From Sphingosinicella soli (GTDB lineage Bacteria > Pseudomonadota > Alphaproteobacteria > Sphingomonadales > Sphingomonadaceae), in assembly GCF_014199685.1 (NCBI RefSeq), contig NZ_JACHNZ010000006.1, positions 1 through 64,000 of the forward strand: a stretch of DNA of 64,000 nt, read 5' to 3'. The translations under genes were made by a program, and so were the position numbers. Every line of letters starts with the position of its first letter. Position 1 is the stretch's first letter. The notes below the pieces were generated by a model. The model worked only from the letters and a program-made list of their open reading frames with translations, did not search any database and was not told the origin of the DNA. Below are positions 2,185 to 56,752 of this stretch, one piece after another.

Positions 2185-3366
2185 ATGAATCGCCTCTGGC
2201 ACAACGCAAGACTCATGACGCTCGAAGGGCCTGATCTCGGCATCGTCGAGGACGGCGTCGTGGCGTGCGAAAACGGTGTCATCACGTATGCAGGTCCGCG
2301 CGCAGGCGCGCCGGAAGCGGCAGAGACGATCGATTGCGAAGGCCGTTGGATCTCGCCGGGCCTCGTCGATTGCCACACGCACCTCGTCTACGCCGGAAAC
2401 CGGGCGCGCGAGTTCGAGCTTCGTCTGCAGGGCGCATCCTATGAAGAGATTGCCCGCGCGGGCGGCGGCATCGTGTCGACGATGAAGGCGACGCGCGCGG
2501 CGAGCGAGGACGACCTTGTTGCAGCCTCCCTGCCCCGCCTCGATGCACTCCTCGCCGAGGGCGTGACGACGATCGAAATCAAGTCCGGCTACGGCCTGTC
2601 GCTTGAGAGCGAGCGCAAGCAGCTCCGCGCCGCACGCCGCCTCGGCGAAGAACGCCGCGTGGCTGTCACCACCACCTTCCTTGGTGCGCACGCACTGCCG
2701 CCTGAATTCGCGGGCCAGGACGCCTATATCGCGCACGTCTGCGACGTGATGCTGCTCGCACTCGCCGCAGAAGGGCTCGTCGATGCGGTCGATGCGTTCT
2801 GCGAGGGCATCGGCTTCTCGCCCGATCAGGTCGCGCGTGTGTTCGAAGCTGCCCGCGCGCTCTGCCTTCCCGTGAAACTCCACGCCGAGCAGCTTTCCGA
2901 TCTCGGCGGCGCGGCCCTTGCCGCCCGCCACGGCGCGCTCTCCGCCGATCACCTTGAATATCTGGACACGGCGGGCGTCGCCGCGATGGCGGCATCGGGC
3001 ACCGTCGCCGTGCTGCTTCCCGGTGCTTTCTATTTCACGCGCGAGGAAAAGCGCCCGCCCGTCGCCGCGCTGCGCGCGAACGGCGTGCCGATCGCCCTCG
3101 CGACGGACTGCAACCCCGGCACCTCGCCGCTCACCTCGCCGCTGCTTGCGATGAACATGGCGGCGACACTGTTCCGCCTCACGGTCGAGGAATGCATCGC
3201 CGGCTTCACGCGCGAGGCGGCGCGCGCGCTCGGCCGCAGCGATATCGGCACGCTTGCGCCCGGAAAGGCTTGCGACCTCGCGATCTGGGACATCGGGCAG
3301 CCTGCCGAGCTTGTTTACCGCATGGGATTGAACCCTCTCCATGCGCGCATCTGGAGAGGACAGTGA
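2185..3366 (+). CDS. hutI: HutI, imidazolonepropionase
   Basis: This enzyme hydrolyses 4-imidazolone-5-propionate to N-formimidoyl-L-glutamate, the third step of histidine breakdown. The 393-residue amidohydrolase carries the metal site [10 protein letters not shown] with His64 and His66, a KSGYGL strand, an LHAEQ histidine and the late ATDCNPG aspartate. I chose the ATG at 2185 because GGAG at 2171-2174 then sits about 10 bases away; the ATG at 2176 lies right against it. It is the first gene of the hutIHGU operon, and its TGA overlaps the hutH GTG start by four bases. Regulation is likely through the palindrome just upstream. Confidence 0.95.
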
Positions 3367-4868
3367 CGATCACGCTCATCCCCGGCGCAATCCGCTACAC
3401 GGAGCTTCGCGCCATCTATCGCGGCGAAACAGCAGCGCTCGACGACGCCGCCTTCCCGGCGATCGAAGCAAGCGTAGAGTCTGTCGCGCGTATCGTCGCG
3501 CGCGGCAATCCCGTCTACGGCATCAACACCGGCTTCGGAAAACTCGCCTCGGTGCGCATCGGCGATGACGATCTCGCCACGCTCCAGCGCAACATCGTAC
3601 TCAGCCATGCCGCCGGTGTCGGTGCACCGATGCCGCGCGCGGTCGTGCGCCTGATGATGACGCTGAAGCTGGCCAGCTTCGGCCACGGCGCCTCGGGCGT
3701 CTCCACCGCGACCGTGCGCCTGATCGAAGCCATGCTGGCGAAAGACCTGATGCCCACGATCCCGTCGCAGGGCTCCGTCGGCGCAAGCGGCGATCTTGCC
3801 CCGCTGGCGCACATGGCCGCCACGATGATCGGCGTCGGCGAAATTGATGAAGTTCCCGCCGCGACAGCGCTCGCCGAGGCGGGGCTTTCCCCGCTCACGC
3901 TCGGCGCCAAGGAAGGCCTCGCCCTCCTCAACGGCACGCAATTCTCCACTGCCTATGCGCTCGCGGGCCTGTTCGAAGCCGAAACCCTGCTGCGCACCGC
4001 GCTCGTCACCGGCGCGCTCTCCACGGAGGCCGCGAAAGGCTCCGATACGCCGTTCGATCCGCGTATCCACACGCTGCGCCGTCATCGCGGCCAGATCGAT
4101 GTGGCGGACGCGCTGCGCACGCTCATGCAGGGCTCGGCGATCCGCGCCTCGCACCTAGAAGGCGACGCGCGCGTGCAGGATCCCTATTGCCTGCGCTGCC
4201 AGCCGCAGGTGATGGGCGCGGCGCTCGGCATTCTGCGACAGGCGGCCGAAACATTGGTCGACGAGGCAAACGGCGTCTCCGACAATCCGCTGATATTCGC
4301 GGATACCGACGAAGCGCTTTCAGGCGGCAACTTCCACGCCGAGCCGGTCGCCTTCGCGGCGGACATCATCGCGCTGGCGCTCTGCGAGATCGGCTCCATC
4401 GCCGAACGCCGCGTCGCCATGCTGGTCGATCCGGCGCTCTCCGGCCTCCCCGCCTTCCTCACGCCGCACCCCGGCATCAATTCGGGCTTCATGATCCCGC
4501 AGGTGACAGCCGCCGCGCTGGTCTCGGAAAACAAGCAGCGCGCCTATCCGGCCAGCGTCGACTCGATCCCCACGTCCGCCAATCAGGAAGACCACGTCTC
4601 GATGGCCGCGCACGGCGCGCGCCGCTTGCTGCCGATGGCGGAGAACCTCGCTTCGGTGCTCGCCATCGAATATCTCGCCGCCGCGCAGGGATGCGACTTC
4701 CACGCGCCGCTCGCCTCCAGTCCCGTGCTCGAACAGGCCCGCGCCGCGCTCAGGCGCGACGTGCCCACGCTGGAGGACGACCGCCATTTCCACCCGGACA
4801 TCGTCGCGGCGACCCGCATCGTGAACGCCGGCACGCTGGCCGCCCTCACGGAGCTTGCCGTCCTGTGA
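3363..4868 (+). CDS. hutH: HutH, histidine ammonia-lyase
   Basis: Histidine ammonia-lyase deaminates L-histidine to trans-urocanate, the entry step of the pathway. The 501-residue protein contains the [14 protein letters not shown] signature. Ala141-Ser142-Gly143 in it would cyclise into the MIO electrophile, almost the same numbering as in characterised bacterial enzymes. Other family landmarks are [11 protein letters not shown] near residue 55 and [12 protein letters not shown] near residue 380. The start is the GTG at 3363, overlapping the hutI stop in a GTGA junction; the stop in turn overlaps the hutG start. The enzyme should be a cytoplasmic homotetramer. Confidence 0.97.
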
Positions 4869-41710: not shown

Positions 41711-41735
41711 AGATTTAATGCGGCAAGCGTCATGC

Positions 41736-42947
<1,212 letters not shown>

Positions 42948-42970
42948 TTCGCACCTTTCAATTTCTGCCG

Positions 42971-43049
42971 TCACCCTGAACTCGTTTCAGGGTCCATAGG
43001 CCGTTTCCTCAAGCACCGCCGTATGGATGCTGAAACACGTTCAGCATGA
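42971..43049. repeat. structured intergenic repeat with two self-folding arms
   Basis: The left arm (42971-42997) contains ccctgaactcgtttcaggg, a 7-bp hairpin. The right arm (43023-43049) is its imperfect reverse complement and contains gctgaaacacgttcagc, again a hairpin. The arms agree at 21 of 27 positions; four of the six differences are paired changes (cc/gg against tg/ca) that keep each local stem intact. The element lies between the acyl-CoA dehydrogenase and thiolase genes. It resembles a widely dispersed repeat of sphingomonad and related genomes. Confidence 0.75.
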
Positions 43050-43063
43050 CGACGGGGCCTTGG

Positions 43064-44866
43064 TCATCCTCTCGCAAATGCCTCGGGAGGCAGTGCCATC
43101 AGTGTTTCGGCGCCGGTTTCGATCTTGCGGCGCAGCGCGCCCGCATCCGGCAGGTAGCGAGCACTATAGTATCGGGCGGTCGTCAGTTTAGCCTCGTAGA
43201 AAGGGGAGTCTTCCGTGCCCGCCGCCAGCGCGGCCTGCGCGGCGCGCGCCATCTTCAGCCACATCCAGCCGAGCACGACCGTGCCCATCAGGTGCATGTA
43301 GGGCACCGCGCCCGCTCCGGCGTTGTTCGGGTTCGCCATGCCGTTCTGCATCAGCCACATGGTGGCCGTCTGCAGCTCGTTTCCGGCCTTCTCCAGCGCT
43401 TCGGCCATCGGCGCCAGCGCGGCGTCGGCCTTTGCGGCGGCGACCTCCTCGCCGATCGTGGATGCCAGAAGCATCAGACCCTTGCCGCCGTGGCGGCCGA
43501 GCTTGCGGCCCACCAGGTCCATCGCCTGAATGCCGTTGGTGCCTTCATAGATCTGGGCGATGCGGGCATCGCGGACGAACTGCTCCATGCCCCATTCGCC
43601 GACATAGCCGTGGCCGCCGTAAACCTGCTGCGCGTTCACCGCCGTCTCGAAGCCCTTGTCGGTCGTGTAGCCCTTGATGACGGGCGTCAGGAGGCTGATC
43701 AGTTCGTCGGCGTTGGTGCGCTCCTCCTCGGTCTGCGCCTTCTTCGACAGGTCGACCTGAAGCGCGCCCCACAGCAGCAGCGCGCGGGCGCCCTCGGTGA
43801 AGGCCTTGCCGTCCATCAGCATGCGCCGCACGTCGGGGTGGACGATGATCGGATCCGCCTTGTCGCCCGGGTCGGCGGGTCCGGTCAGCGCGCGGCCTTG
43901 CTGGCGCTCCAGCGCATAGGTCACGGCGTTCTGATAGGCGACCTCACCCTGCGAAAGCCCCTGCAGCCCGACGCCGAGCCGCGCCACGTTCATCATGATG
44001 AACATCGCCTCAAGGCCCCGCTCCGGCTCGCCGACCAGATAGCCGGTCGCCTCGTCGTAGTTCAGCACGCACGTCGCGTTGCCGTGGATGCCCATCTTGT
44101 GTTCGATCGCGCCGCAGGAAACGCCGTTGCGTTCGCCGAGGCTGCCGTCGTCGTTCACCATGAACTTCGGCACGATGAACAGCGAAATGCCCTTCACGGT
44201 GTCGGGCGCGCCCTCGCGCTTCGCCAGCACGAGGTGGATGATGTTCTCCGCAAGGTCGTGCTCGCCCGCCGAGATGAAGATCTTGGTGCCGGTGATCCTG
44301 TAGCTGCCGTCCCCCGCGTCAACCGCCTTGGTGCGAATGAGGCCGAGATCGGTGCCGCAGTGCGGTTCGGTGAGGTTCATGGTGCCGGTCCATTTGCCCG
44401 AGACCATGTTGGGCAGGTATTTCTGCTTCTGTTCGTCGGAGCCCTTCACCTCGATGGAGGCGATCGCGCCTGCCGTGAGGCCGGGATACATCCCGAACGC
44501 CATACCGGCGGAACTCAGATACTCCTCGAACGCCATGCTGATCGTGTAGGGAAGCCCCTGCCCGCCGAACTCCGGGCTCATGTGCAGCGTGCCCCAGCCG
44601 CCTTCGCAGAAAGCCTGATAGGCCTCTTTATAGCCCTTGGGCGTCGTCACCGATCCGTCGTCGTGGCGCTTGCAGCCTTCGCGGTCGCCGGAGAAGTTGA
44701 TCGGCTGCACGACGCCTTCCACGAACTTGGCGCCTTCCTCCAGGATCGCCGCGACCATGTCGGGCGTCGCTTCGGAGAAGGTCGGCAGGTTCGAATAGCG
44801 GTCGAGGCCGATCACCTCGTCGAGGATGAACTTTGTGTCGCGAACGGGCGCGCGGTACGTGGGCAT
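43064..44866 (-). CDS. acyl-CoA dehydrogenase, large C-terminally extended (DmdC/FadE-like)
   Basis: This 600-residue FAD-dependent acyl-CoA dehydrogenase belongs to the long subgroup that includes 3-methylmercaptopropionyl-CoA dehydrogenase. Family blocks: the N-terminal helix [34 protein letters not shown] (FAD), [12 protein letters not shown], and the late [21 protein letters not shown] with [17 protein letters not shown]; a roughly 130-residue C-terminal extension follows. The substrate in this context is more likely a fatty acyl-CoA than the sulfur compound. ATG at 44866 with GGGGAG upstream, one base after the stop of the MerR gene, so it is the first enzyme gene of the operon. Confidence 0.93.
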
Positions 44867-44867
44867 A

Positions 44868-45290
44868 TCAGAACTCCCCGGATCTGGCGTTGGAGGGCAA
44901 CAGCCCCTGTACGACCCCGACGAACTCTTCGAGTTCCGCGATCGTTGCATCGATATCGTTACGCTGATTGGTCAAAAGCGCGATCTGGCGGCGGCAAAGC
45001 TCCAGAGTCCGTTCGCGCTGCCGCACGCGGCCGTCGTCCACGTCGTAAAGGTCGAGGATTTCCCTGATCTCGGCCAGGCTGAAACCGACGTTCTTGCCGC
45101 GCAGGATCCACGCCAGCCGGGCGCGGTCGCGCCGCGAATAGACGCGGCTTTGCCCCTGCCTAGCCGGTACGATCAGCCCCTGATCCTCATAGAAACGGAT
45201 CGCGCGCGGGGTGACGCCGAACTCTGCGGCGAGATCGGTGATGGTGAAGGTTTCGTCCTCGAGAACGGCTTCCATCGGGCGCTGTGGCAT
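44868..45290 (-). CDS. MerR-family regulator, LiuR-like
   Basis: This 140-residue regulator has the MerR winged helix at the N terminus ([37 protein letters not shown], about residues 14-55), a dimerising coiled coil (about 85-125) and no metal-binding cysteines. This fits LiuR-like regulators of acyl-CoA and branched-chain amino acid breakdown. It is cotranscribed with the acyl-CoA dehydrogenase, thiolase and FadJ-like genes that follow. A perfect palindrome of LiuR type ends 15 bases before its ATG, so it probably regulates itself and the operon. Effector not known. Confidence 0.88.
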
Positions 45291-49221: not shown

Positions 49222-49249
49222 TTGCCCGAAGAGTAATCGGCTTTATGAT
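49222..49249 (+). promoter_or_regulatory. sigma-70-type promoter of the ester hydrolase gene
   Basis: TTGCCC (49222-49227) and TATGAT (49244-49249) are separated by 16 bases. Transcription would begin near 49256, leaving a leader of about 24 bases that holds the CGGGGGAA ribosome site before the ATG at 49280. Confidence 0.5.
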
Positions 49250-49279: not shown

Positions 49280-51202
49280 ATGTTCGCACGCCGCTGTCTC
49301 GCCGCCCTGCTCGCGTCCACGCTTGCTGCGGCCGCCCTGCCTGCGACCGCCGAGCCGCTGCCCATCAGCGACATCCCCGCCGATTTCAAACCGTCCGACG
49401 CCCGCAAGGATTTCACGATCCGCGAGGTGATGATCCCGATGCGCGACGGCGTGAAACTGCACGTCAACCTCGTGATCCCGAACGGCGTGAAGAACGCCCC
49501 GATCATCTTTTCGCGCACGCCCTATTCGGCGGACAGGGCGATCACCCGCCTTGCCTCCAACACCTACAAGCTCGCGCTTCCCGTCACCTATGCGGAGCTT
49601 GCGGAGGCGGGCTACATCATCGCGGTGCAGGACGTGCGCGGGCGTTATCGCTCCGAAGGCGACTATGTCGTCGCCCGGCCGCTCGTCGGCTCGCTCAACC
49701 CCGCGAACACCGATCATTCGACGGACACGTGGGACAGCATCGACTGGCTGGTGAAGAACGTCCCCGAAACCAACGGCAAGGTCGGCACCATCGGCGTCAG
49801 CTACGGCGGCTTCACGACGCTGATGAGCCTGGTGAACCCGCACCCCGCGCTCGGCGCGGCGGTTCCGATCAATCCGCTGGTGGACGGCTGGGTCGGCGAC
49901 GACTGGTTCCACAACGGCGCCTACCGCCAGAGCTTCCTCGATTGGGTCTACCGGATGACCGCCGACAAGTCCTCGAAGTACGCCCTCCAGTTCGATCGCT
50001 ACGACACCTATGAAAGCTGGCTGCGCGCCGGTTCGGCGAGCGACATGGCGAAACAGCTCGGCATCGAGGAGTTCCCGATCTTCAAGAAGGCCGCCGCGCA
50101 CCCGGCCTACGACGCATACTGGCAGGGCCAGGCGCTCGACAAGATCCTCGCCAAGGAGCCTCTCAAGGTTCCCACGCTCCACGTCCACAGCCTGTGGGAC
50201 CAGGAAGACATCTACGGAGCACCCGCCGTCTACAAGGCGATGGAGCCCAAGGACACCGCCAACGCCGCCAACTACATGATCATCGGCCCGTGGCAGCACG
50301 GCCAGAGCAACATGCCGAGCGGCACGAAGCTCGGTGCCATCGATTTCGGCAGCAACACCTCCGCCTGGTATCGCAGCGAGGTGCTGATCCCCTTCTTCGA
50401 CGCGCACCTGAAAAACGACGCGCCCAAGGCCGATCTCGCGCCGGTCACGGCGTTCGAAACCGGCGCCAACGTCTGGCACCGCTACGATCGCTGGCCGATG
50501 TCGTGCGCGAGCGGCTGCCCGTCGCAGTCCAAACCCATCTACCTGCAGACGCAGGGCGGGCTCGGCTGGAACGCGCCCACCGTGCGCGCCGCTTTCGCCG
50601 AATATGTCGCCGACCCCGCGCGCCCAGTCACGTACCGCGAGCGGCCGATCCTCTCCACGTACAACCCCGACACGTCATGGGGCCGCTGGCTGGTGGACGA
50701 CCAGCGTTTCGCCGAGGCGCGGCCCGACGTCGTCACCTTCGTCAGCGAGGTGCTCACCGAAGACGTGCGCCTCGCGGGCCAGCCGATCGCGAAGTTCTTC
50801 GCCTCCACGAGCGGTACGGACAGCGACTGGGTGGTGAAGCTGATCGACGTCTACCCGGCGGAGTACGCCCCCGCCCCGGAACTCGCGGGCTACGAACTCG
50901 CGATCTCGATGGACATCCTGCGCGGCCGCTACCGCGAAGACCCCTCGAAGCCGAGCGCGATCCCCGCGAACAAGGTCGTGCCCTACGAGATCAAGCTGCC
51001 CGACGTCAGCCACCGGTTCCTGAAGGGCCACCGCATCATGGTGCAGATCCAGTCCAGCTGGTTCCCGCTCTACGACCGCAACCCGCAGACCTACGTGCCC
51101 AACATCTTCTTCGCGAAGCCGGAGGATTACAAAAAGGCCACGCAGCGCATCCACACCTCGGCGCAGTACCCCAGCCGCATCGAACTGCCGGTCGTGGAAT
51201 AG
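49280..51202 (+). CDS. alpha-amino acid ester hydrolase (beta-lactam acylase family)
   Basis: This 640-residue secreted hydrolase has a signal peptide (cleavage near residue 24, ALPATA) and the CocE/NonD fold. The nucleophile is Ser174 in GVSYGGFTT, the acid Asp307 in LWDQED, the base His340 in GPWQHGQ. Asp208, Glu309 and Asp310 make the carboxylate cluster that binds the substrate's alpha-ammonium group. From memory these are exactly the positions in Xanthomonas citri alpha-amino acid ester hydrolase, as is Tyr175. The VDGWVGDDWFHNGAYRQ block is characteristic. Such enzymes hydrolyse alpha-amino esters and can acylate or cleave beta-lactams such as ampicillin and cephalexin; the natural role may be dipeptide or ester scavenging. 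It is transcribed alone. Confidence 0.93.
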   Translation: MFARRCLAALLASTLAAAALPATAEPLPISDIPADFKPSDARKDFTIREVMIPMRDGVKLHVNLVIPNGVKNAPIIFSRTPYSADRAITRLASNTYKLALPVTYAELAEAGYIIAVQDVRGRYRSEGDYVVARPLVGSLNPANTDHSTDTWDSIDWLVKNVPETNGKVGTIGVSYGGFTTLMSLVNPHPALGAAVPINPLVDGWVGDDWFHNGAYRQSFLDWVYRMTADKSSKYALQFDRYDTYESWLRAGSASDMAKQLGIEEFPIFKKAAAHPAYDAYWQGQALDKILAKEPLKVPTLHVHSLWDQEDIYGAPAVYKAMEPKDTANAANYMIIGPWQHGQSNMPSGTKLGAIDFGSNTSAWYRSEVLIPFFDAHLKNDAPKADLAPVTAFETGANVWHRYDRWPMSCASGCPSQSKPIYLQTQGGLGWNAPTVRAAFAEYVADPARPVTYRERPILSTYNPDTSWGRWLVDDQRFAEARPDVVTFVSEVLTEDVRLAGQPIAKFFASTSGTDSDWVVKLIDVYPAEYAPAPELAGYELAISMDILRGRYREDPSKPSAIPANKVVPYEIKLPDVSHRFLKGHRIMVQIQSSWFPLYDRNPQTYVPNIFFAKPEDYKKATQRIHTSAQYPSRIELPVVE

Positions 51203-51218: not shown

Positions 51219-53423
51219 TTAAAGCCCTCTGGCCCGGGATTCGCCGGTCTCGCTGTCCTGGGAAGCCATGAATTCCGCAGCAAAGCTCTCGGGGGGTGTC
51301 GGTCTGCCGGTCAGATCGCCCTGGACGATGTTGCACCCGGCGATGCGAAGGAGATCCCGCTGCTCGGCGGTTTCGACGCCTTCGCCGATGACGTCCAGCC
51401 CGAAGCCGCGCGCCAGGTCCATTATCGCGGCGACGATCGCGCGGTCGCTCCCCGATGTCACCATCCCCCGCACGAAGCTCTTGTCGATCTTGATGTGGGT
51501 CAGGGGATAGCTCTTCAGCAGGCTGAGCGAGGCATAGCCGGTGCCGTAATCGTCGAAAGCGAGCCCCACGCCCATCGCCTTCAACGCGAACAGCGGCGGC
51601 AGCGTCTGGTCCTGCTGATTGAGGATGGTGCTTTCGGTAATCTCGAGTTCGAGCGCGTCGGGTGGCAGGGCATAGCGCTCCAGCGTCGCAGCGACCGTCT
51701 CGACGAGGTTTCCGTCGCGAATCTGCGAAGCGAACAGATTGACCGCGACACGGAAGTCGGGCGCGCCCCGGGTTCGCCACAGCGCGGCCTGAGAGCAGGC
51801 ATCGTCGAGCATTCTGAAGCCCACACTCGCGCTCAGCGGCGAGAATTCGAGCGCGGACAGGAACTCCGCCGGCTGGAGCAGCCCAAGCTCCGGATGCTGC
51901 CACCGCATAAGCGCCTCCGCGCCGACGAGGGCGTTGTCGGAAAGCCGGAACTGCGGCTGATAGTGCAGCAGGAACTCGTTCCGCTCCGCAGCGCGGTGCA
52001 GGGCGACATTGCCGTCCCGGCGTGCGGCGGCGGCCATGCGGAGCGCCGGTTCGAACACGACGACGTTCCCGCCCCCCTCCAGCTTGGCCTCGAACAACGC
52101 AAGGTCCGCATTCGCGACCAGCACGCGCACCTCGCCGGCATGCAACGGGCTCATGGCGATGCCGGCACTGCACTGAATGCGGATTTCCTCGCCGCCCAGC
52201 CGGATCGGCACGGAAAGGTCGGCCATCGCGCCTTCCACCACTTCGGTAACGGCCTGCAGATCGCTGGTGCTGACCAGCATCATGGCGAATTCGTCGCCCC
52301 CGACGCGGGCGATCAGGTCTTTTTCGGTGATCCGGTCCGTCAGCCGCTCGGCGACCACCCGCAGCAGTTCGTCCCCCGCTTCATGGCCCAGCGTGTTGTT
52401 GACCGCGTTGAAACCGTCGAGATCGATGATCGCCAAGGCTGCCGGATTGCCGCTGTCGATCGCGTCGGCAAGCCTGCGATAGAGCAGGTTGCGGTTGGCA
52501 AGGCCCGTCAGCGTGTCGAAGTTGCCGAGGTGGCGTAGCCGCGCTTCCTGCTGCTTGTTCCTCGTCACGTCGCGCACGATGGCGGCGAAGTGCCGGTCGT
52601 CGTCGTCGACCCAGCTCGACCATGCGAACTCCATCGGGAACGGGCTCCCGTCGCGGTGCCTGCCCGCATACTCCACGCATTCGGCGCCGACGGTGTTCCG
52701 CGCATTGGCCAGAATATCGTTGGCCGCGTCGCGAATTCTGGCCTCCTCCTCGGCCGGCATCAGGATATCGAGCGAGCGGCCCGTGGCCTCTTGCGAGGAA
52801 TAGCCGAACATGGTCTCCGCGCCGCTGTTCCATGCCGTGATATCAAGGTTCCGGTCGAAGCAGATGACGGCGTTCGGCGATGTCGCCGCGCTGTTTTCAA
52901 ACAGCGTGCGGCTGTTGCTCGCCGCCACCTCCATCCGCCGCAGCTCCAGCTTCTCGGATGCGACGAGGCCGAGGTCGCGCAGGCTCTCCCGGTCGGCGGG
53001 CGTGAAGACCCGGTGCGGTTTGCTGTCGATCACGCACAGAACGCCAAGCGCGTGGCCGGAAGGCGAGCGGAGCGGCACCCCTGCATAAAACCGTGTCGGC
53101 GTCGCGCCGGTCGTCAGCGGGTTGTCGAAAAAGCGCGGATCCTCCAGCGCGTCGGGCACGACCAGCACATCGTCCTGGGTAATCACGTGCGCGCAGAAGG
53201 AGACTTCGCGCCGCATGTCGGCCTCGCGGATGCCCCGGCTTGCGGCGAAGAACACATGCTCGCTGCCGACCAGATTCACCGCCGAAACCGGCATATCGAA
53301 CAGCCGGGCCGCGATTTCCACCACCGGATCGAGGCTCGGCAGCGGGCCCTTGTCTTCCAGATCATACTCGCGAAGGCTGACGAGCCGGTCGTCTTCACCC
53401 AAAATGGCCGATGGATAGCGCAT
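51219..53423 (-). CDS. GAF-PAS-GGDEF-EAL cyclic-di-GMP signalling protein
   Basis: This 734-residue cytoplasmic protein has a GAF domain (about 20-165, with SFCAHVITQDDVLVVPDA, FYAGVPLRSPSG), a PAS domain (about 170-295), a GGDEF domain (300-465) with intact GGDEF at 375-379 in RVGGDEFAMML, and an EAL domain (480-730) with E503-A-L, a complete DDYGTGYASLSL loop and IGEGVETAEQ. Both catalytic sites look functional, so it may be bifunctional. The GAF/PAS parts suggest redox or ligand sensing. Start: ATG at 53423 with GGGGGAAAG upstream; an upstream extension is rejected. It is convergent with the ester hydrolase (16 bases between stops). Confidence 0.93.
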   Translation of the reverse strand: MRYPSAILGEDDRLVSLREYDLEDKGPLPSLDPVVEIAARLFDMPVSAVNLVGSEHVFFAASRGIREADMRREVSFCAHVITQDDVLVVPDALEDPRFFDNPLTTGATPTRFYAGVPLRSPSGHALGVLCVIDSKPHRVFTPADRESLRDLGLVASEKLELRRMEVAASNSRTLFENSAATSPNAVICFDRNLDITAWNSGAETMFGYSSQEATGRSLDILMPAEEEARIRDAANDILANARNTVGAECVEYAGRHRDGSPFPMEFAWSSWVDDDDRHFAAIVRDVTRNKQQEARLRHLGNFDTLTGLANRNLLYRRLADAIDSGNPAALAIIDLDGFNAVNNTLGHEAGDELLRVVAERLTDRITEKDLIARVGGDEFAMMLVSTSDLQAVTEVVEGAMADLSVPIRLGGEEIRIQCSAGIAMSPLHAGEVRVLVANADLALFEAKLEGGGNVVVFEPALRMAAAARRDGNVALHRAAERNEFLLHYQPQFRLSDNALVGAEALMRWQHPELGLLQPAEFLSALEFSPLSASVGFRMLDDACSQAALWRTRGAPDFRVAVNLFASQIRDGNLVETVAATLERYALPPDALELEITESTILNQQDQTLPPLFALKAMGVGLAFDDYGTGYASLSLLKSYPLTHIKIDKSFVRGMVTSGSDRAIVAAIMDLARGFGLDVIGEGVETAEQRDLLRIAGCNIVQGDLTGRPTPPESFAAEFMASQDSETGESRARGL

Positions 53424-53533
53424 TCTTTCCCCCCGGTTGAGAAGCCCCTCCACTCGCCATGCCGTTATGTCAGAGAATATCCCACCCGACCAGCCGCGCG
53501 CGCCACCGCGCCTCCCTCTCAAACGATCAGGCT

Positions 53534-55327
53534 TCAGTCCCGAACGGCGGCGGTTGCCCCCGTGACCAGGTGTCCGCCGGTGATGAGACCGAAGGATCCA
53601 GCCATTTCATCACCGTTCGGTCCGAAAAATCGCATATAAATGTCGCCGACAGAACTTCCGGCCTGCGTAAGACCGGTGAGAAAAGCGCTATCGGCCAGAC
53701 CAGTGCCTGCCACGAGATCGAACTGACCGAAATCGACGGTCGAGCCGCCCACACGGTCAGCACCCTGCAGCCTCAGCCAACCGCCGTACGCCTGCGCGGC
53801 GAAATCGATCTGGAATTGCGAGGTGCCGGTCACGGCGAGTTGCTGCTGCGCGCCGCCGCTGCCTGCCGCGCCGATGGCGATACCGTTGTATGTCGCCGTG
53901 CCGGTCCGACCCAGAAGCACCCCCGGCGCGGTCTCCAGCCCATAGCTGAGGAACGTCCGGGTGATCTCGTTCGCGTCTGCGGTTTCCCGGAATCGCGAAT
54001 ATTCGCCGAAACTGGCGTAGGTCAGTTCGATCTCACCGGGGCCATCGGGCTTGTAGAGCGCCATCTCGAACGTCTCGCCGCCCTCCGTTTTCCGGTAAAC
54101 CGTGAACGCGTCGGCGCTGGTGTCCACGCGGTCCGTTGCGGCGAATTCCACTTCGGGGCCATCTGCGCCGGAAATCGCGTAGCGGCCGTCGGTATAATAA
54201 AACAGGCTCTTCGTCAGCAGCGTGGCTTCGGACGTGCCGTCGTCCGTACCGTCCTTGAGTTGCAGGCCGCTGTATTCGCCGCCCAGCGCGAAAAGACCCA
54301 TATTGTGACTGAGATCCGTCAGCGTGATATTCCGGTCCGGCGCGCTCGGGTTGGCAGCGGTGAAACCACCCACGACCGTGCCGCCGCTGCCGTTGTCGCC
54401 GCTGAACACGCCGCCTGCCTCCTGCGCTTCGGGGCCGTAGAAGCCGCCGTTCAGCTGACCCGCGACGGGATCGAGGGATCCGTCGTAGCGGAACGTGCCT
54501 GAAAAGCCGCCGTCACCGGAATCGAGCGTGCCCGCAGCGCGGAAAGACAAGGCTCCGGTCACTCCGGCGCCGGTCACGAAATAATATTCCTGAAGGTTCG
54601 TATCGATCGTGAACGTGCTGCGGTCGAAGTCGAACATGGTTTGCCCGGTGCCCGCGAATGTCAGCGGATCGCTGCCCACCTGCGTGGTGAGCCCGAACAC
54701 ATCCGTTGTGTACTGGGCCGAACCCAGTCTCGGGACTGCGGCGGTTTCTGTCGGAAAGCCGTAAACGAAGACGTCGAATGCCGTGTCCTGCAGGCTGCCG
54801 CTGCCCGTGTTCGACTGCCAGAAGCCGAGACCGACATGGCGTGTTCGGAGATCGGATGTGTACGACGTGTCGATGAGCGTAAGCGCCTCGGAAGACTCGG
54901 CCGTCGTTACGACATACCGGCGATCCGCATCGCTGCTCGTCGCCACGCGGTCGGCGGGCGCGAAGCTCTGGGTGATACCGTCGCGGTTCATCGTGTAGAT
55001 GCCGGTCGATGCGTTGTAGGAGATGCTGATCTCTCCCAGGTTCACGGACGTGTTTTCAACGATCCCTCCGGGCATCCGAAGCGAAACCGTATTCCGGCTC
55101 GAAGGCCCGGTGAAGGTCTGGCTGTCGACGAGATCAGCGACATCGGGATCAGGTGCCGGGGTCGGGGTCGGAGTGGGTGTAGGGGTCGGTGTCGGCGTTG
55201 GTGTGGGCGTTGGTGTGGGCGCCGGCGGCGTCGTGGTCACGCCTCCCCCCGAACCGCCTCCACACGCCGCAAGCAGGAGGGCCATTGCGCCAAGCGGCGC
55301 CCATTTGATCCGTCCGATAGACTTCAT
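53534..55327 (-). CDS. two-lobed TbpB-like surface lipoprotein, likely Slam cargo
   Basis: This 597-residue lipoprotein has a type II signal with the lipobox LLAAC (Cys22), a glycine spacer, a Pro-Thr linker of ten PT repeats (37-56) and then two similar halves. Each half ends in a beta-barrel closing motif of the transferrin-binding-protein type: GFYGPEAQEAGGVF at 295-308 and FFGPNGDEMAGSF at 567-579. This bilobed plan matches TbpB/LbpB and other Slam-dependent surface lipoproteins. It follows the Slam gene by 18 bases in the same operon, so it is probably carried to the cell surface by that protein. Ligand unknown (metal-binding host proteins are unlikely for a free-living host). ATG at 55327 with GGGAG upstream. 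Confidence 0.85.
   Translation of the reverse strand: MKSIGRIKWAPLGAMALLLAACGGGSGGGVTTTPPAPTPTPTPTPTPTPTPTPTPTPAPDPDVADLVDSQTFTGPSSRNTVSLRMPGGIVENTSVNLGEISISYNASTGIYTMNRDGITQSFAPADRVATSSDADRRYVVTTAESSEALTLIDTSYTSDLRTRHVGLGFWQSNTGSGSLQDTAFDVFVYGFPTETAAVPRLGSAQYTTDVFGLTTQVGSDPLTFAGTGQTMFDFDRSTFTIDTNLQEYYFVTGAGVTGALSFRAAGTLDSGDGGFSGTFRYDGSLDPVAGQLNGGFYGPEAQEAGGVFSGDNGSGGTVVGGFTAANPSAPDRNITLTDLSHNMGLFALGGEYSGLQLKDGTDDGTSEATLLTKSLFYYTDGRYAISGADGPEVEFAATDRVDTSADAFTVYRKTEGGETFEMALYKPDGPGEIELTYASFGEYSRFRETADANEITRTFLSYGLETAPGVLLGRTGTATYNGIAIGAAGSGGAQQQLAVTGTSQFQIDFAAQAYGGWLRLQGADRVGGSTVDFGQFDLVAGTGLADSAFLTGLTQAGSSVGDIYMRFFGPNGDEMAGSFGLITGGHLVTGATAAVRD
55160..55219 (-). repeat. hexanucleotide-based Pro-Thr repeat in lipoprotein gene
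   Basis: Ten consecutive Pro-Thr codon pairs (CCN-ACN) encode the linker between the lipidated cysteine and the folded domains. The units vary at the third codon positions, but a repeat of this kind can still change length by slippage in whole six-base steps without shifting the frame. The linker probably works as an extended tether. Confidence 0.9.
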
Positions 55328-55345: not shown

Positions 55346-56686
55346 CTAGAACGCTGCCGTGACCCCGACTTCCCCTGAAACGCGCGTGTAATCATAAAGT
55401 TCTATGGTCGACACGTTCCGTTCACGAGACAGTTTCAATATGGGCGCGAATGAACCTACCCTGAACTTTCTTAACGTCGCTGAAAGGCCGATCTCATAGC
55501 GGTCATCCACGCGGCGCTTCGGATAGAGAAACAGCCTGCGGTCGGCTTCAAGATGCTCGTATTTCGCGCTCAGCACCGAAGTCACCTTGCCCATTTCCAG
55601 AAACAGGTAGGCGCCGATGCCGCCGCTCGCTGTGGAATAGCCGGGATCGCGCGCGGTCTGCCGAAGCCCTGAAACCTGCACGCCGCCGCCGAAGCGGGAT
55701 GTAAAGGCCCGGTCGATCCCGACCGAAAGGCTATAGCGATCCGCATCGCGCAGAGACGAACGCCGATCCTCACTCCGGGTTGCGGCGCCGTCCACCCGCA
55801 TCTGCCCGCGACGGCCCAGCGGATGCTGGACGTTGGCGGACAGGCCGTATGAAAACTCATAGGGCTTGCGCCCGTACCATCGCCAGGCCACCAACCCCGC
55901 AAGACTGATCTTGTCCGTTCCGGAAAGAACCTGCGGCCCGGCCTGAAGAGACGCAGCATAATCGTCGAACTCGCCGTCGCGGTACACCCGCGCCGCGCCT
56001 GAAGCCCGCAGCAGGATGTCGACATGCGGATCGATCGGGGCGCGCGCGTACGCCTGCCCGCGCAGCGACACGCCGAGCCCCGATGTTTCCCGCGCATCCC
56101 TGCTGAGGTCAAAGTCCCCGATCACCGTGCCCAGCGTTTCGGAGCGCGTGGCGCGATTGATGTTGCTGTCGGGCGCAAACGCGACCTCCAGACTGCCGCC
56201 GAAGGGCTTCCGCGCGCCGAGGGCCTGAGCATAGAAACGAACAAGCGGCTCGATTTCAGGCGGTAGCCCGGCAGCCTGCGCCGCCCGCAATTCGCGCTCC
56301 GCGGCGCCGATGTTTCCCATCAACGCCTGTATCCGGGCCAGTTCCACCCGCACCCTTGCCGCGTTGGGCTTTTCATCAAGAATTTCCCGAAGCAGCACGG
56401 CCGCCTCGCGATGCTGCTTCCCGGTCTCTGACAGCATCATCGCGAGACGAAAACGGGCCTCGGTCCGGATTTCGATATCGGGGTTTTTGGCCAAGGCGAG
56501 ATAGGCCGTCCGCGCCGCCTCAATATCGTCTGCGGCCTGCGCCTGCTTGGCGAAATCGAACAGCTGCGCTGCCGAAAGCTCCATCGCTTGCGCCGATCGA
56601 GGCTCGGCATCGCGGGACTGTGCAGAGACGTGAACGGGACATGCCAGGGCAAGCAGCGCACCAAGCCGGAGCAGGGCCTTAAACAT
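55346..56686 (-). CDS. Slam (DUF560) outer-membrane protein, type XI secretion translocon
   Basis: Slam proteins move lipoproteins from the inner leaflet of the outer membrane to the cell surface. In this 446-residue protein a signal peptide (about 1-22) precedes a TPR-rich periplasmic domain (35-145; AARTAYLALAKNPDIEIRT, LARIQALMGNIGAAEREL) and a C-terminal DUF560 barrel from about 160, opening with the family hallmark SLEVAFAPDSNINRA and ending in a terminal Phe, as outer-membrane barrels do. The next gene encodes a lipoprotein of the TbpB type, the expected cargo. I start at the ATG at 56686 because it gives a proper signal peptide; no good ribosome site is visible, and a GTG at 56734 is an alternative. 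Confidence 0.87.
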   Translation of the reverse strand: MFKALLRLGALLALACPVHVSAQSRDAEPRSAQAMELSAAQLFDFAKQAQAADDIEAARTAYLALAKNPDIEIRTEARFRLAMMLSETGKQHREAAVLLREILDEKPNAARVRVELARIQALMGNIGAAERELRAAQAAGLPPEIEPLVRFYAQALGARKPFGGSLEVAFAPDSNINRATRSETLGTVIGDFDLSRDARETSGLGVSLRGQAYARAPIDPHVDILLRASGAARVYRDGEFDDYAASLQAGPQVLSGTDKISLAGLVAWRWYGRKPYEFSYGLSANVQHPLGRRGQMRVDGAATRSEDRRSSLRDADRYSLSVGIDRAFTSRFGGGVQVSGLRQTARDPGYSTASGGIGAYLFLEMGKVTSVLSAKYEHLEADRRLFLYPKRRVDDRYEIGLSATLRKFRVGSFAPILKLSRERNVSTIELYDYTRVSGEVGVTAAF

Positions 56687-56752
56687 GCCGGGCTGCGGCT
56701 GAAGCAAATACTGGAAAATCACGCCACACGTCACCGGCCTTTTCGTATTCCG

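Follow-up and report, generated by a model that had tools for sequence, protein, structure and literature searches.

A predicted exported hydrolase of the alpha-amino acid ester hydrolase family in Sphingosinicella soli, with an intact catalytic core and a putatively changed acyl pocket

Introduction

Semi-synthetic beta-lactams are produced with the help of alpha-amino acid ester hydrolases (AEHs; EC 3.1.1.43), homotetrameric enzymes that hydrolyse alpha-amino esters and transfer acyl groups to beta-lactam nuclei; their role in nature has yet to be settled. Solved members include the enzymes of X. citri (1MPX) and A. turbidans (2B9V, 2B4K, 1NX9), and another solved relative, 4PF1, titled in the PDB as an archaeal aminopeptidase from marine sediment, is reportedly a tetrameric extracellular aminopeptidase. 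For the X. rubrilineans AEH, the residues are given as the triad S175/H341/D308, Y83/Y176 and the cluster D209/E310/D311 (Zarubina et al., PMC3890990). The X. citri numbering runs one lower because the initiator Met is left uncounted (PMC3890990), and the Tyr at position 222 of the Xanthomonas AEH stacks on the phenyl group of the substrate (PMC3890990). Amino acid ester acyltransferases from Empedobacter and Sphingobacterium are 35-36% identical to the Acetobacter AEH (PMC6920838).

The gene described here lies in a window of 64,000 nucleotides, the whole stretch of DNA that was analysed (Sphingosinicella soli, RefSeq assembly GCF_014199685.1, contig NZ_JACHNZ010000006.1, positions 1 to 64,000). 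An initial annotation, made from the letters of the window, had read it as a secreted AEH with all the catalytic positions of the Xanthomonas enzyme.

The gene and its product

The product joins an alpha/beta-hydrolase catalytic domain to a non-catalytic C-terminal domain, and NCBIfam assigns it to the CocE/NonD family (TIGR00976). The gene-level features are the following.

49222..49249, + strand: possible sigma-70-like promoter, TTGCCC-16-TATGAT, 9/12 matches, weak
49280..51202, + strand: CDS of an AEH-like serine hydrolase (Peptidase_S15 + PepX_C; CocE/NonD family), 640 aa plus stop, ATG start
49280..49351, + strand: N-terminal export signal, residues 1-24, MFARRCLAALLASTLAAAALPATA (then EP), read from the translation by eye
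49445..50305, + strand: alpha/beta-hydrolase catalytic domain PF02129 (Peptidase_S15), residues 56-342, Pfam, E 4e-57
50432..51181, + strand: C-terminal non-catalytic PepX_C domain PF08530, residues 385-634, Pfam, E 6e-31

The gene is under purifying selection, with dN/dS values of 0.08-0.15 between the window copy and its four nearest relatives and of 0.07-0.16 over all pairs. It is present in five of six Sphingosinicella genomes, the one that lacks it being only 78% complete, and its retention in the genus, together with the dN/dS values, indicates that the gene is functional. Upstream of the ATG, the motif GGGGGA is found 6 nt away, at the position of a ribosome-binding site. The promoter, initially described as good, is better called weak, as it consists of a single 9/12 match where 0.4 +/- 0.7 are expected in shuffles. 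The leader is likely of the Sec type, with a putative cleavage site and without a lipobox, a reading of the translation that fits the very low pLDDT of the structure model at residues 1-18. The description of the product as secreted is supported to the extent that an N-terminal export signal is present.

Catalytic residues and the carboxylate cluster

The following positions were assigned by alignment.

49523..49525, + strand: Tyr82, oxyanion-hole tyrosine, absent from the initial list of residues (role from PMC3890990)
49799..49804, + strand: Ser174, nucleophile, and Tyr175 (oxyanion hole)
49901..49903, + strand: Asp208, carboxylate cluster
50198..50209, + strand: Asp307 (triad), Gln308, and Glu309 and Asp310 (carboxylate cluster)
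50297..50299, + strand: His340 (triad)

In a phmmer search the hydrolase matches 1MPX_A with 731 bits (E 9.8e-219), and the alignment is ungapped over query residues 35-343, with a constant offset of 22 residues to the crystallised construct. Aligned with the X. citri and Acetobacter AEHs, the protein shows the same catalytic set, and relative to 1MPX the cluster is not shifted and contains no gap. All seven residues named at the outset (Ser174, Tyr175, Asp208, Asp307, Glu309, Asp310 and His340) are confirmed by position, and Tyr82 is added to them. Their numbers equal those of the X. citri AEH, as had been stated, and agree with the published numbering once the initiator Met is accounted for (PMC3890990). 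A chance match is excluded.

These residues are shared by about 140 AEH-like proteins and show no or almost no variation in alignments of 15, 24 and 67 family members, and D208, E309 and D310 are retained even in relatives at 35-40% identity. Being family-wide, they mark the AEH-like family rather than a near relative and do not discriminate within it. Two CocE/NonD paralogues encoded in the same genome, one of which has cocaine esterases as its nearest solved structures, lack the cluster and show D-V-S-V and D-G-D-Q instead of D-Q-E-D. Thus, AEH-like enzymes are set apart from plain CocE-type esterases by the carboxylate cluster, the residues of which predict that the window protein binds a free alpha-amino group.

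Fold and nearest solved relatives

The window protein was modelled with AlphaFold from 67 sequences, and this second model (pLDDT 91.1, pTM 0.90) replaced one made from 24 sequences in which loop 203-214 was poor. Ranked by Z score, its best match is 1MPX (Z 53.9, 1.5 A over 612 residues), followed by 4PF1 (Z 52.6, 1.6 A over 609 residues) and the A. turbidans AEH entries (Z 52.2-52.4), with cocaine esterase next at Z 37. Ranked by E-value, 4PF1 comes first in Foldseek and is also the best PDB match in phmmer (E 1.2e-219), and it has the same triad and cluster as the window protein.

The TIGR00976 assignment and the domain plan shared with CocE (Z about 37 to 1JU3 and other cocaine esterase entries) would suit a generic CocE-type esterase with no need for an alpha-amino group in its substrates. 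However, identity to CocE is about 30% by structure, the sequence and structure scores to AEH and 4PF1 are far above those to CocE, and the window protein has the full conserved cluster that the CocE-like paralogues of its own genome lack, all of which makes such an esterase highly unlikely. CocE proper was rejected as a candidate, the protein scoring 165 bits with CocE and 731 with AEH and having the cluster. An X-Pro dipeptidyl peptidase of the S15 PepX type (1LNS, 6NFF) was rejected as well, at 15-16% identity, Z 24-27 and no phmmer match at 1e-3.

Position within the family

The window protein is 54% identical to the X. citri AEH, 52% to 4PF1 and 49% to the A. turbidans AEH, and the two AEHs are 62% identical to each other. 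In the best tree, of 66 rows, the window protein groups with its genus mates and a further locus (L008) in one clade with support of 100/100, and this five-row Sphingosinicella-type clade sits within a ten-row group (100/96). Both characterised AEHs belong to a separate 29-row clade (100/99), and 4PF1 to a third. The trees, like the comparison of pocket residues given below, exclude six loci. Nesting the five Sphingosinicella-type proteins alone in the AEH clade was rejected by the AU test (p-AU 9e-5), whereas forcing the whole ten-row group, i.e., these five and their five nearest kin, to the AEH clade gave p 0.23 and was not rejected.

Judged by its sequence, the window protein is no close sister of the X. 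citri AEH. The assignment to the AEH family, with the triad, the oxyanion tyrosines and the carboxylate cluster, holds, but the close homology that the initial annotation had deduced from equal residue numbers without gaps was overstated, given the 54% identity and the position outside the 29-row clade in the best tree. Nor do equal numbers imply closeness: the A. turbidans AEH, which has the same catalytic set and fold and groups with the X. citri enzyme, is the nearer of the two to it, and yet its numbering is shifted by about 30 and its serine is residue 205. Equal numbers follow from a similar length of the signal peptide and from whether the Met is counted.

The putative wall of the substrate pocket

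Two positions differ from those of most of the family.

49805..49807, + strand: Gly176; Glu in the X. citri and A. turbidans AEHs, Asp/Glu/Pro in most of the family
49943..49945, + strand: Trp222; mostly Tyr in the family, as in the Xanthomonas AEH

The window protein has G176, L200, W222 and M226 where both characterised AEHs have E, M, Y and Q, and it differs from 4PF1 at 176 (E) and 222 (Y). When the five-member clade is compared with 124 other family members, L200 (Met in 122), Y215 (Phe in 118), W222 (Tyr in 112) and M226 (Gln in 120) are among the residues that are fixed in the clade and rare outside it. Position 222 is occupied by Y, W or F across the family, and some proteins of the AEH clade, too, have Trp222; the phenyl-stacking Tyr222, which is not family-defining, is missing in the window protein and Trp stands in its place. 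The other positions would likewise line the pocket, and these changes may alter specificity.

These residues bear on whether the protein is a functional equivalent of the X. citri AEH, that is, a hydrolase of D-phenylglycine-type esters that in addition works at useful rates on cephalexin and ampicillin, in synthesis as well as in hydrolysis. The identical catalytic and cluster residues in ungapped alignment, the rank of 1MPX as best fold match by Z and the presence of Trp222 in some AEH-clade members are consistent with equivalence, but the 54% identity, the best tree, which places the protein apart from the clade with both characterised AEHs, and the substitutions Tyr222->Trp, Glu176->Gly, Met200->Leu and Gln226->Met, which are fixed among the Sphingosinicella-type proteins and seldom seen in others, put it on the unlikely side. 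A bolder proposal, speculative and in our estimate rather unlikely, is that the Sphingosinicella branch with Gly176, Leu200, Trp222 and Met226 would form a specificity class of its own within the AEH family and not another antibiotic acylase. Its members could, for example, be exported aminopeptidases or aminoacyl transferases acting on unusual or bulky hydrophobic amino acids.

Distribution and genomic neighbourhood

The nearest named relative is the orthologue of Sphingosinicella microcystinivorans DSM 19791 (L068), at 91% identity, with the same pocket residues and the same purF-SDR neighbourhood. Both genes precede the hydrolase gene in the window, as had been noted, and do so in three genus mates. 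A GAF-PAS-GGDEF-EAL gene follows the hydrolase gene in the window (51219-53522, - strand), whereas in S. microcystinivorans it lies upstream, between the SDR gene and the hydrolase gene (5679-7859 of L068), and it was not found in the stretch read of two other genus members. The spot has thus been rearranged within the genus.

In the wider family the gene is patchy, being found in 38 of 200 genomes at E < 1e-100. Among the ORFs that surround 86 family loci, the hydrolase itself forms the only widespread cluster, and none of its neighbours recurs at more than eight. The earlier remark that the gene sits alone is supported, and an operon or context clue to function was rejected for want of a recurring neighbour across these loci. 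Searches of the window with Rfam gave no match, and its one tRNA is far from the hydrolase gene. Carriage by phages was rejected, with only two partial or distant matches among viral contigs, as was carriage by plasmids, with 15 plasmid records all below 60% identity. AEH homologues do occur on plasmids (NZ_CP010410.1, NZ_CP023037.1, NZ_CP014677.1 and others) of Xanthomonas sacchari, Komagataeibacter, Kozakia, Sphingomonas and several Bacteroidota, which may be relevant to the family's patchy distribution. One contig filed as viral (L148, IMGVR_UViG_3300005511_000807) encodes at 3001-4818 an AEH-like protein of nearly full length, 38% identical, in which the carboxylate cluster is present; the contig may be a misfiled cellular fragment.

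Elsewhere in the window, two adjacent genes (53534-55327 and 55346-56734, both - strand) form a likely Slam system in an alphaproteobacterium. One member of the pair is a TPR/SlipAM outer-membrane protein (PF04575, E 1e-13), and its partner is a lipoprotein with matches to TbpB_B_D and to Slam-dependent lipoproteins (66.6 bits, below the 80-bit cut-off) and with a linker of Pro-Thr repeats that follows the lipobox. The Slam-like pair is kept in S. microcystinivorans. Two large neighbouring ORFs at 41718-45067 (+ strand), of 443 and 673 aa, match neither Pfam nor NCBIfam and are conserved within the genus at about 70-75% identity.

Outside the genus, the nearest relative has genes for a TonB receptor and an M19 dipeptidase on the same strand as the hydrolase gene and within 7 kb. 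Together with the export signal and with the best PDB match by E-value being an entry deposited as an aminopeptidase, this neighbourhood would fit an enzyme that acts mainly as an exported aminopeptidase, trimming small or hydrophobic N-terminal residues of short peptides, with ester hydrolysis as a side activity. However, 4PF1 belongs to a different branch, the TonB/M19 neighbourhood was seen once and is interrupted by an opposite-strand PhoD gene, and the known AEHs are described as favouring esters over amides. We consider a main role as aminopeptidase a real possibility, if somewhat short of an even one.

Proposed function and implications

Very probably, the gene encodes an AEH-type hydrolase that would recognise its substrates by their free alpha-amino group. 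Alignment and model place the fold, the triad, the oxyanion tyrosines and the carboxylate cluster in the protein, and around this core we infer specificity, leaving group, location and physiological role. The AEHs, 4PF1 (an aminopeptidase by PDB title) and the Empedobacter and Sphingobacterium acyltransferases have recognition of the free alpha-amino group in common and differ in their leaving groups, and this shared recognition in three branches makes an exported aminoacyl hydrolase the most economical reading. The earlier statement that there is no clue to the natural substrate was too strong, since the best solved relative by E-value was deposited as an aminopeptidase. Against an AEH-type hydrolase count a pocket wall unlike that of both characterised AEHs at 176, 200, 222 and 226, the fact that 4PF1 is called an aminopeptidase after its PDB title, and a neighbourhood without a metabolic link.

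In the proposed mechanism, the substrate ammonium would be held by the carboxylate cluster of Asp208, Glu309 and Asp310, while Ser174, activated by His340-Asp307, would attack the carbonyl and the oxyanion would be stabilised by Tyr82 and by the backbone at Tyr175. The resulting aminoacyl-enzyme could then be resolved by water, leading to hydrolysis, or by an amine, leading to aminoacyl transfer. The enzyme most likely acts in the periplasm, cutting alpha-amino esters and/or N-terminal peptide bonds; in nature it probably acts on small alpha-amino esters, on the N-terminal residue of short peptides or on both, and probably serves scavenging or detoxification. Any activity on amino-beta-lactams would be a by-product.

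By its predicted activity, the hydrolase is an ordinary exported member of a widespread and already described family, and as a genome finding it amounts to an ordinary annotation, the interest of which lies in an altered pocket with an intact core. An AEH-like sequence from a separate branch, with the full core, a putatively changed acyl pocket and a titled aminopeptidase among its nearest solved kin, would be a useful test of what the core alone dictates.
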